DNA from: Arthrobacter sp. B3I4
GTDB lineage: Bacteria > Actinomycetota > Actinomycetes > Actinomycetales > Micrococcaceae
DNA: 64,000 bases
Assembly: GCF_030816855.1 (NCBI RefSeq)
Contig: NZ_JAUSYK010000001.1
Span: forward strand, 186,001-250,000
Direction: 5' to 3'
Shown: piece after piece, positions 15,521-60,576 of the stretch
Layout of the letters: each line of letters opens with the position of its first letter
Position numbering within the stretch: position 1 is the stretch's first letter
Notes under the pieces: model-generated
The model's database searches: none
Told to the model about the DNA's origin: nothing
Seen by the model: the letters and a program-made list of their open reading frames with translations, nothing else
Program-made: the position numbers and the translations under genes

Positions 15521-16009
15521 CTAGTCGCCGGCGCCGCCCATGAACCGCACGAACCGCTGCAGCACGACAGGCCAGGCCGCGTCGCCCTCGGCACGGGTCG
15601 CAGCCGGGTCCTGGGCTCCCTCCCAGCCGCTCTGGACCAAACGCAGCTCCGTGCCGTCCTCGACGGCCCGGAAGGAGACCCGCAGCTCCGTGGACCACAG
15701 GGCTTGGCTGCCCGGGTGCCAGCTGGCGTGGAAGGAGAGCGGCGGCTGCCAGTCGTCTATGGAGCCCCAAACAGCTGTCCTGCCATCATCAGCGGTCTCA
15801 AGGATCAGGTTCTCCTCGAACTCCACGTAAGAGCCGGGGCCGTAGACGCTGTGCCCTTCGAGCGGCCACCACAGGTGCGTGTGCTCGGTGAAACCCATGA
15901 AGGCCCGCGCCACAGGACCGGGCACAACGACTGTGTGCACCACCGGGTCCAGGCCCTCGTCAGACCCAGGTTCGGACGCCGCCGCGGCATGGCTGAAGAG
16001 GTTATCCAT
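15521..16009 (-). CDS. SRPBCC domain protein (AHSA1-like)
   Basis: A protein of about 162 residues with the START/Bet v1-like fold of the AHSA1 group. Typical elements are VVHTVVVPGPVARAF near the start, THLWWPLEGHSVYGPGSYVEF, and the C-terminal helix AWPVVLQRFVRFMGG. Such proteins bind hydrophobic ligands in a deep pocket; ligand and role are unknown here. I use ATG 16007-16009 (MDNLFSHAAAA). A GTG at 16042 would add 11 residues but falls inside the inverted repeat that flanks the gene. The gene is hemmed in by the 116-bp element downstream and the repeat cluster upstream. Confidence 0.75.
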   Translation of the reverse strand: MDNLFSHAAAASEPGSDEGLDPVVHTVVVPGPVARAFMGFTEHTHLWWPLEGHSVYGPGSYVEFEENLILETADDGRTAVWGSIDDWQPPLSFHASWHPGSQALWSTELRVSFRAVEDGTELRLVQSGWEGAQDPAATRAEGDAAWPVVLQRFVRFMGGAGD

Positions 16010-16034: not shown

Positions 16035-16113
16035 ACCCCCACACGCTCCCTCAGCTCCGGCAGATTTCTTCCGGACGCTCCCGCAGTTGATGCGGGCGTC
16101 GGTGTGTGGGGGT
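16035..16113. repeat. Nested inverted repeats next to the 64-bp array
   Basis: ACCCCCACAC (16035-16044) is the exact reverse complement of GTGTGGGGGT (16104-16113). Between them is a hairpin with arms at 16074-16085 and 16091-16100 (one bulged base). GCTCCCTCAGCTCCGG (16045-16060) is an inverted copy, with one mismatch, of the half-unit sequence of the tandem array that follows. The structure covers the upstream edge of the SRPBCC gene. Confidence 0.7.
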
Positions 16114-16154
16114 CGCTGTGTTAGGCGCCGTATCTGAGGGACGGTGGCCCGATT

Positions 16155-16545
16155 GGGGGCCGTATGTGAGGGAGCGTCGTCCGGTTACGGGCCGGTGCTG
16201 AGGGAGCGTCGTACCCGTGGGGGCCGTATGTGAGGGTGCGGCGTCCGGTTACGGGCCGGTGCTGAGGGAGCGTCGTACCCGTGGGGGCCGTATGTGAGGG
16301 AGCGTCGTCCGGTTACGGGCCGGTGCTGAGGGAGCGTCGTACCCGTGGGGGCCGTATGTGAGGGAGCGTCGTCCGGTTACGGGCCGGTGCTGAGGGAGCG
16401 TCGTACCCGTGGGGGCCGTATGTGAGGGAGCGTCGTCCGGTTACGGGCCGGTGCTGAGGGAGCGTCGTACCCGTGGGGGCCGTATGTGAGGGAGCGTCGT
16501 CCGGTTACGGGCCGGTGCTGAGGGAGCGTCGTACCCGTGGGGGCC
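16155..16545. repeat. Tandem array: six copies of a 64-bp unit
   Basis: Units start at 16155, 16219, 16283, 16347, 16411 and 16475 and are almost identical, then seven bases of a seventh. Each unit is itself two related halves of about 32 bp, both containing GAGGGAGCGTCGT; this core occurs 11 times exactly, with one variant copy in unit 2. A decayed half-unit (GCCGTATCTGAGGGACGG) precedes the array at about 16125-16150. The array starts about 40 bases beyond the rRNA terminator. Open frames through it are repeats without protein character. Because the whole unit repeats, it is not a CRISPR. Confidence 0.95.
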
Positions 16546-16582
16546 GGTTGGGAGGGAGGGGTTTTGGGGGTTTAAAGAGCTC

Positions 16583-16606
16583 AGGCCCCGACGTGTGTCG
16601 GGGCCT
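16583..16606 (-). terminator. rRNA operon terminator
   Basis: AGGCCCCGAC, a GTGT loop and GTCGGGGCCT form a perfect 10-bp stem directly after 5S rRNA. On the minus strand it is followed by GAGCTCTTTAAA, a modest T-rich stretch. Confidence 0.85.
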
Positions 16607-16620
16607 GGCTGTAATGGTTG

Positions 16621-16737
16621 TCCGGCGGTGTCCTACTCTCCCACACCCTCCCGGGTGCAGTACCATCGGCGCTGTGGGTCTTAGCTTCCGGGTTCGGAAT
16701 GGGACCGGGCGTTTCCCCCACGCTATGACCGCCGTAA
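16621..16737 (-). rRNA. rrf: 5S ribosomal RNA
   Basis: The minus strand reads TTACGGCGGTCATAGCGTGG at the 5' end, contains the conserved CCCATTCCGAACCCGGAAGC core and closes with the complementary GGACACCGCCGG. About 117 nt, the last gene of the operon. Exact ends are accurate to a few bases. Confidence 0.95.
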
Positions 16738-16895: not shown

Positions 16896-16967
16896 AAGCA
16901 GTCTTGTTTCTTTTCCCCCGCCCGTGGTGCAAACGCTTTTGAAGTTCGTTTGCCGGGTGGGGTGTGT

Positions 16968-20090
<3,123 letters not shown>

Positions 20091-20210
20091 CCACAAAAGA
20101 TCAATCAGTAATTTTCGAGAGAACCATGAAAACCACCGCCCCGCCCCAAAGGACAGAAACGACAGATCCAGGTTCATATTCTTGGAAATTGCTTCTTATA
20201 AAAGATGCTC

Positions 20211-20640: not shown

Positions 20641-22174
<1,534 letters not shown>

Positions 22175-59526: not shown

Positions 59527-60576
59527 ATGGCACCCAGTGAGCTGGCGGGCATCGCGGCGCAGCTGTACGCGTTGCCCTTCGACGACTTCATTCCGGGCCG
59601 GACGGCCGCCGCCAAGGAGTTGCTCGCCGGGCAATCCGTTACTACGGAGCTGCGCTCCCGGGCGGCCGAGGTGCGTGCACTGCCCAAACCGTCGGTGAGC
59701 GCCTGGGCCGTGAACATGCTCGCCTGGCACCGGCCCGAGACGCTCGGTGAGCTGGCCGGGTTGGGACTTGCGATGCGCCAGGCACAGGATGCCCTGGACG
59801 CGCCAAGGCTCCGCAGCCTGGCCGGGGAACGGCGCAGAGTGCTGGCCGATACTGTCGGCGCCGCGCGCAAGGTGGCGGAACAGCAAGGCCGCAAGATCAG
59901 CGGTGCGATCGCCTCGGAGGTGGAAGAAACCCTGCGGGCAGCCACTGCCGACGAGGGCGCCGCCGCCGCGGTCCGGAGCGGGCGCTTGCTACGTGCCTTG
60001 TCCGCCAACGGGGTCGACGCCGCCGAGCTCACCGGCGCGATAGCTGTCCCGGAGGCACCCCCGGCGGCACCGGCGGCTGCGGGAACGGCGGGAACGGTGC
60101 CCGCAAGGGGCAGGACGGCGAAAAGCGGCGACTCGGAGGACAGCGGCGGCTCGTCGAAAAACGGCGACTCGTCGAACAATGCCGGCGCGGCGGAAGAGGC
60201 CGGCCCGGCCCAGGGCCAGCCCCGGTTGCGGGCCGTCCGGCAGGAGCGGCTGGCTCCCAGCCCGTCCGCGTGGCAGCGCGCTGAGGCCGCCCTCCAGCAG
60301 GCCGCCGACGCCGCGAAATCCAGCGCGGCTGAGGAACAGCGCACCGCCAGTGAACGGGACGACGCCGTGGCGGAAGCCGCTGCGCTGACGGAGGAGGCAG
60401 CCAGGCTCAAGGAAGACCTCGCACGTGCCGAGGACGGACTTCGGCGGGCGCGGAAGCGCCTCGATTCGGCCACGGCAGCCGCGCAACAGGCGGCCCGGGC
60501 GGCGGACAAGGACCGCCGCCGCGAAGACCTGGCAAGGGAAAGAGTGCTGCGGCTGGGCAACACGCCCGGTCGATGA
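59527..60576 (+). CDS. Hypothetical protein with C-terminal coiled coil
   Basis: A 349-residue cytoplasmic protein. The N-terminal domain (1-170) is helical and conserved-looking, with ALPFDDFIPGRTAAAKELL and LPKPSVSAWAVNMLAWHRPE. Residues about 175-245 are a low-complexity linker rich in Ala, Gly and Ser. From about 250 to the end is a strongly heptad-like coiled coil (EAALQQAADAAKSS, RLKEDLARAEDGLRRARKRL). I do not recognise a named family. It probably starts on a leaderless mRNA (see the element before it). The architecture suggests an oligomeric scaffold or nucleic-acid-associated protein; that is inference. Confidence 0.8.
   Translation: MAPSELAGIAAQLYALPFDDFIPGRTAAAKELLAGQSVTTELRSRAAEVRALPKPSVSAWAVNMLAWHRPETLGELAGLGLAMRQAQDALDAPRLRSLAGERRRVLADTVGAARKVAEQQGRKISGAIASEVEETLRAATADEGAAAAVRSGRLLRALSANGVDAAELTGAIAVPEAPPAAPAAAGTAGTVPARGRTAKSGDSEDSGGSSKNGDSSNNAGAAEEAGPAQGQPRLRAVRQERLAPSPSAWQRAEAALQQAADAAKSSAAEEQRTASERDDAVAEAAALTEEAARLKEDLARAEDGLRRARKRLDSATAAAQQAARAADKDRRREDLARERVLRLGNTPGR

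Follow-up and report, generated by a model that had tools for sequence, protein, structure and literature searches.

The window, a stretch of 64,000 nucleotides from Arthrobacter sp. B3I4 (G000), carries an rRNA operon on its minus strand (16S rRNA, 20647-22172; 23S rRNA, 16966-20092; 5S rRNA, the last gene of the operon, 16620-16736). Between the 5S gene and the repeats described here lies a terminator-like hairpin on the same strand (16583-16606), which was folded and read by eye and is absent from the hits of a simple terminator scan. After a gap of 20-25 bp the repeat array begins, and it occupies the interval up to the codirectional downstream gene (15521-16009, minus strand), the 162-aa product of which has no Pfam match at 1e-5. 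Elsewhere in the window we observed an msiK RNA motif (RF01747, 63 bits) at 2233-2291 on the plus strand and an 18-bp tandem repeat of 3.2 copies at 60119-60176 (Tandem Repeats Finder).

The first-pass annotation had described six near-identical 64-bp direct repeats next to the operon, each made of two halves of about 32 bp, and had ascribed them to a recent expansion or gene conversion. As determined by Tandem Repeats Finder and by unit comparison, the repeats are real: the stretch 16154-16558 (plus strand) is called as a tandem of period 64 with 6.3 copies, 97% matches and a score of 775, and is also called with period 32 and 13.7 copies. Counting 64-bp units from 16154 gives six, five of them identical and one deviating at 2 positions, which supports a recent expansion of this 64-bp higher-order layer. 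Each 64-bp unit consists of two 32-bp units, of which it is a recent doubling, and two spacers alternate along the array. The 3.61-Mb genome contains exactly 11 copies of GAGGGAGCGTCGT, always within this array and on a single strand, and no copy of its reversed control.

The six repeats constitute only one arm of a divergent element that spans 16042-16562, with two left-pointing cores followed by fourteen right-pointing ones. The right-pointing arm (16135-16562, plus strand), delineated by a weight matrix, advances in exact 32-bp steps with core starts at 16135, 16167 and so on to 16551, the last core being degenerate (score 9.5). Missed earlier were the reverse-oriented cores on the minus strand, TGAGGGAGCGTG at 16042-16053 and TGCGGGAGCGTC at 16074-16085 (weight-matrix scores 25.2 and 13.8), together with an imperfect palindrome, GACGCTCCCGCA-gttga-TGCGGGCGTC. 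The second left-pointing core forms the left half of this palindrome and the right half, TGCGGGCGTC, was found by eye at 16091-16100 on the plus strand; the automatic stem search of the array gave only 7.9, at a different place.

Sought elsewhere in the genome without its trailing GT, the core pointed out by the first-pass annotation turned up at about 17 other places, and we are almost certain that the window array belongs to a dispersed family sharing one anatomy, namely 32-bp-period repeats of a 12-bp core in G000 and its congeners. With two mismatches allowed the core hits 146 places in G000; most of these are chance, as the reversed control pattern hits 144. A sequence model built from 46 units (R1) yielded at least 81 matches in G000 at E<=5, which form 17 clusters apart from seven weak ones that stand alone, and a further cluster at 2370 kb raises the total to about 18 in the 3.61-Mb genome. 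At E<=0.05, R1 matched at least 28 of 49 genomes, the own genome included: at least 25 of 31 from the own genus and at least three of 18 from other genera, the latter with at least one or two matches each. Ten chosen congeners contain at least 7 to 88 matches each. These counts are lower bounds because at most 150 first-look candidates were scored per genome, as are those of a second model, R2, with at most 54. R2 was built from two core types, would miss others, and at family level matched at least seven of 149 genomes and at least two of 32 genera; six of the eight own-genus genomes listed were matched, and the sole other-genus genome had a single match. A 128-base query matched nine of 59 genomes, all of the own genus. 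The exact core 16-mer was found in 62 stretches from many phyla in a collection of named genomes, which we judged to be chance; when all of these stretches were scanned with a weight matrix, the sole cluster was one of Arthrobacter globiformis (L042), with two cores in phase adjoining a third, inverted as read by eye. The titles and abstract openings of open-access literature on Arthrobacter repeats and boundary elements, a body that mostly excludes subscription journals, do not describe the family. Those papers listed for five core strings in open-access PMC full text look unrelated by title, and the unit sequences do not occur in the accessible part of a Renibacterium VNTR paper (PMC4029610).

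To define the architecture of the family, loci from 19 genomes were scanned with the weight matrix. The scan delimited 132 clusters, 8 of which are single cores; as the loci were taken around the best-scoring listed matches, the sampled arrays are the better ones. Left out were the rRNA flanks L107 and L114, which lack cores, the isolated matches L116-L118 and a 100-base filler (L257), and two clusters, L236 of G011, which lies inside a gene, and L229 of G012, consist of a lone core that probably arose by chance. In 72 of the 73 clusters with both orientations, all left-pointing ('<') cores come before all right-pointing ('>') cores; exceptions to this directly observed polarity are L238 and L110, where a weak '<>' pair lies ahead of '<<<<<'. 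Cores of the same orientation are spaced by 32 bp in 300 of 353 cases, by 33 bp in 34 and by 31 bp in 9, and even arms that are 0.5-1.2 kb apart (L110, L170, L245, L246) each keep their side and orientation. When each group is represented by a single array (n=38), spacings across the inversion show a 10.5-10.75-bp phasing (R=0.49, p about 1e-4), a helical signal that is confounded by the 32-bp period itself, which fits them equally (p=9e-5).

Most arrays lie close behind stop codons. A flanking gene 3' end was called for 106 of the 131 clusters that lie outside genes; the other 25 include the 12 situated between divergent genes and some next to rRNA genes or contig ends. The distance to the nearer 3' end has a median of 9 bp in the 106 clusters, with 78 lying within 30 bp and 87 within 60 bp. 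Gene contexts of the 131 clusters are convergent in 48 cases, tandem in 54, divergent in 12 and not determined in 17; the divergent share of 12 in 114 compares with 63 of 310 adjacent gene pairs at these loci, a count that takes in the pairs bearing arrays. Where a two-armed array lies between tandem genes, the arm toward the start of the next gene has 2.46 cores and that toward the stop codon 2.44. A role special to the rRNA operon or in replication conflict, as envisaged by the first-pass annotation, is not upheld by these data: most clusters sit at the ends of ordinary protein genes, an rRNA-specific function was rejected on this ground, and the rRNA flanks of G000 contain cores in three of five cases, one of them weak.

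In different species, arrays are found next to the same genes although their spacers are unrelated. Relatives of the 162-aa protein gene adjoin arrays in G019 and G035, and in G023 a lone core close to the end of a contig. Arrays with one arm and no inverted partner are likewise conserved between species (L100/L161, L101/L158), and hence hairpins between cores are not required. Of 30 called flanking proteins at the G000 loci 27 were scanned with Pfam and 26 have matches, mostly to metabolic enzymes and transporters. They include arginyl- and methionyl-tRNA synthetases, the isopropylmalate dehydrogenase family, glycine-cleavage H and T proteins, formate-THF ligase, inositol-phosphate synthase, and TetR-type and Fur-type regulators; no transposase was among the 27. 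One recurrent array is followed by an arginyl-tRNA synthetase-like gene (G000, 1427050-1428813) of which some but not all congeners searched have a full-length version at >=84% identity.

The core reads TGAGGGAGCGTC in G000, where it is extended to about 20 bp (GCCGGAGCTGAGGGAGCGTC), and TGAGAGAGCGTC, TGAGCGGG[C/G]GT[C/T], TGATGGCGCGTC or TGATGGGGCGTC elsewhere. We directly observe that the letters at its variable positions are tied more closely to the genome than to the locus. The letter at core position 5 is G in G000 (62/63), G023 (57/57), G030 (37/39), G031 (62/64) and G035 (143/146), and A in G019 (50/52), G016 (13/16), G027 (37/48), G020 (11/12) and G026 (9/10); G021 (15 G, 6 C, 1 T) and G036 (6 G, 3 A) are mixed. 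This position is the same in 90% of between-locus comparisons inside one genome (n=750), in 13% when matched loci of a G-type and an A-type genome are compared (n=70) and in only 69-73% among A-type genomes. Loci counted as matched if they had one or more flanking proteins in common at 45% identity and were chained into groups, some pairs being different gaps; core identities are inflated by the choice of sites by motif, position 5 less so as both letters were allowed. The spacers carry almost no locus signal, with identities of 0.33-0.35 at matched and 0.31-0.34 at unrelated loci, and neighbouring units share 0.52, compared with 0.34 for units of other loci. Next to the downstream gene of the window array, the gap contains GAGGGAG in G000, GAGAGAG in G019 and G016, and GAGCGGG in G017, and no array adjoins this gene in G001 and G010 (in G016, G017, G001 and G010 the gene was identified by visual inspection of its first residues). 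The GAGCGGG type occurs in two separate clades of a one-gene leuB tree. At the 2370-kb locus of G000 (L112, 2193-2268), three TGAG[T/A]GAGCGTT cores between the glycine-cleavage H and T genes resemble the type of other species, although G000 is of the GAGGGAG type. At two G021 loci (L185, L187) the palindrome in the array centre has another motif, ATCTGCAGGAGGGTTCCGT or a slight variant of it, which may represent an additional core type. GTAGGGGAGCGTC, two mismatches off the core, is found inside rRNA operons of G000 (204778, 947282, 956062) and is probably a conserved 23S rRNA stretch.

A lag scan blind to the core was applied to 16 own-genus rRNA flanks from 15 genomes, that of L215 stemming from a 5S match below the cut-off. 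A strong 32-bp periodicity was detected in four of them (L198, L202, L208, L210) and traces in two (L199, L205). Ten rRNA flanks from other genera displayed none, L190 having a 36-bp repeat, and three flanks were too short for the scan. In 20 further flanks from five chosen genomes, two of which were picked because an array was already known, 12 gave a 32-bp signal, and three of the 20 also gave a 24-bp signal. The cores at rRNA flanks read TGAGCGGG[C/G]GT[C/T] in G017, G012 and G011, TGATGGCGCGTC in G001 and TGATGGGGCGTC in G003 (L198), the typing being based on one locus in G003 and on two in G001. The R1-negative genomes G001, G003 and G017 bear 32-bp arrays with other cores at their rRNA flanks, as do the R1-poor genomes G011 (at least one match) and G012 (at least seven). 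In G006, the rRNA flanks contain two degenerate cores, both types being adjacent. Gene conversion among rRNA flanks could unify the core type there, but not across protein-gene loci. Between the two arms of an rRNA-side array of G012 (L339, 253-564) lies a remnant of a Mutator-family transposase (PF00872, E 4e-21), as if an insertion sequence had landed in the array centre.

The gap between metG and leuB was followed through 30 genomes. A 32-bp signal is present only in G000, G020 and G002, and only a hairpin, seen by eye, in G018 and G027, which may be a seed or a remnant of an array. The other 25 genomes revealed neither array nor hairpin in this gap, which could not be delimited in six. In G030, G031 and G036, arrays are located beside the same gene as the metG-leuB array.

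Protein binding, one of the roles offered by the first-pass annotation, is the best-supported reading of these data: the rigid 32-bp phase, the polarity, the position at stop codons, the conserved core amid free spacers and the genome-wide core differences all argue for sites of a DNA-binding protein. Since the core letters are common to loci of one genome and differ between genomes, and spacers are unlike even at matched loci, we consider it likely that a putative trans-acting, sequence-specific factor reads the cores. Position and polarity further suggest, with a roughly even chance of being right, a function at transcription boundaries, and we hold it about equally open that the family represents bidirectional 3'-boundary elements for termination or insulation, often with a central hairpin. 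In such an element, one or two arms of an asymmetric core of about 12 bp, repeated every 32 bp or about three helical turns, would diverge from a centre that often forms a hairpin. A binding protein of lineage-specific specificity may occupy the cores on one face of the helix, and as the arms diverge, RNA polymerase from either side would meet the cores in the same relative orientation. The bound array might then act as a polar roadblock or insulator and, with the central hairpin where present, stop transcription and read-through; the window array could back up the rRNA terminator. A one-way terminator leaves the equal second arm in tandem cases unexplained, which suggests symmetric two-way insulation over one-way termination. 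Also against a boundary function are the arrays placed behind another hairpin in the window and at L101/L158, the twelve clusters between divergent genes, the patchy presence at metG-leuB and the mixed core types of G021 and G036.

Part of this pattern would also follow from a selfish, REP/REPIN-like origin, in which an element-specific transposase copies a palindromic seed to 3' intergenic sites, arms grow by slippage and the core type follows the transposase of the species. The patchy presence and the bare hairpins of G018 and G027 fit such an origin, as do multiple matches in one genome that are confined to the own genus (R2, two core types, lower bounds) and a placement like that given for REPs in the accessible part of PMC3733652. 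We regard it as unlikely, however, given the non-palindromic 32-bp unit, the direct repeats in fixed phase, the lack of a transposase among the 27 flanking proteins scanned, and the recurrence beside the same genes despite unrelated spacers. Pairing of '<' with '>' cores in the transcript, yielding a terminator or an exonuclease-protected 3' end, draws on the central stems: their best score averages 13.2 in 72 two-arm arrays versus 11.8 in 402 chimeric controls, which are not independent, 14 is reached by 47% versus 28%, and several arrays have stems that exceed the core, with 23 perfect pairs in L258. Yet the conserved one-armed arrays cannot fold in this way, complementarity alone would not give unlinked loci one genome-specific core, and the window region attains only z=-1.4 against shuffles, on which an in-array RNA fold was rejected. 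This RNA-level explanation is quite improbable to us.

Phased DNA sites dispersed round the chromosome, with symmetric arms, might instead serve nucleoid organization or topology and lie behind genes merely because space is free there, but they hug stop codons and are scarcer between divergent genes than gene pairs at large would predict, rendering this reading very unlikely. A neutral satellite homogenised by slippage and gene conversion would account for the near-identical 64-bp units and for spacer sharing between neighbours. The first-pass annotation held that absence from close relatives with randomly scattered copies would point to such a satellite, and we find the reverse, with R1 matches in most own-genus genomes and copies that keep to gene 3' ends. 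Core and spacing are kept while spacers randomise, the polarity rule holds and arrays recur beside the same genes; the polarity and core/spacer comparisons thus already disfavour the satellite, which we deem highly improbable. Rho utilization sites, which are C-rich and G-poor in RNA, were considered as well, as whole units read from the neighbouring gene are C-rich (C 0.41, G 0.24; 181 C and 90 G in 384 positions of the window array). This bias stems from the core itself, and the rut reading is weakened because the spacers alone are unbiased (C 0.335, G 0.329).

Compared with known systems, a boundary element of the kind proposed here has several partial parallels. The unit of REP and BIME elements is an imperfect palindrome of 20-40 bp, and BIMEs have been proposed as gyrase or nucleoid sites. 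Like REPs, BIMEs and REPINs, the arrays are dispersed and extragenic, lie mostly behind the coding regions of tandem or convergent genes and less often between divergent ones, and often form inverted pairs. In contrast to REPs and BIMEs, their consensus is asymmetric, palindromes occur at array centres, and the rigid 32-bp direct arms have one polarity and core differences that are concerted between species. REPs of the GTAG/RAYT kind come with a Y1 transposase; none is present among the 27 scanned of the 30 called flanking proteins at the G000 loci. The arrays share with intrinsic bidirectional terminators a central hairpin, in about half of the two-arm cases, but possess arms and exist in one-armed forms without a hairpin. 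An intrinsic terminator has a U-tract after its hairpin, and the tails of the central hairpins, present in many arrays, are mostly not U-rich as judged by eye. CGTC-REPs have an 8-9 bp stem, a 4-5 nt loop per unit and a CGTC tag according to the accessible part of PMC3733652, in which the words Arthrobacter and actinobacteria have no occurrence. The array core also ends in CGTC, whereas the A/C-rich spacers of L110 and L113 leave the unit stemless. RepRanger (PMC12306157) tabulates REP counts for Arthrobacter livingstonensis that, from the accessible text, may or may not include this family. CRISPR, in which identical repeats are separated by unique spacers, was rejected, as neighbouring spacers are alike (0.52) and two spacers alternate in the window array, and a KOPS-type motif with one orientation per replichore was rejected on the presence of both orientations in 73 of 132 clusters. 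Mycobacterial MIRU/VNTR loci are tandem intergenic repeats in an actinobacterium, and we know of no phased conserved core or divergent polarity in them. The Sal box of TTF-I and the sites of Reb1 are polar, repeated protein sites just beyond eukaryotic rRNA genes; by comparison, the arrays are bacterial and dispersed behind many genes, have divergent arms and a putative binder.

Tentatively, a fast-evolving DNA-binding protein may coat the divergent 32-bp-phased arrays at operon ends, rRNA operons included, and turn them into polar roadblocks effective in both directions, as a genus-wide transcription-boundary system. It is equally conceivable, if doubtful, that this system is a bacterial counterpart of TTF-I/Reb1 termination, the recognition code of which switched several times within one genus. 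If the family were selfish instead, it would represent an extragenic repeat that is unusual in its fixed phase and its polarity. If the boundary system is real, gene ends in these bacteria would be marked by a dedicated, protein-read code alongside hairpins and Rho, and the concerted core differences would constitute a natural experiment on the joint change of a protein and its dozens of sites.
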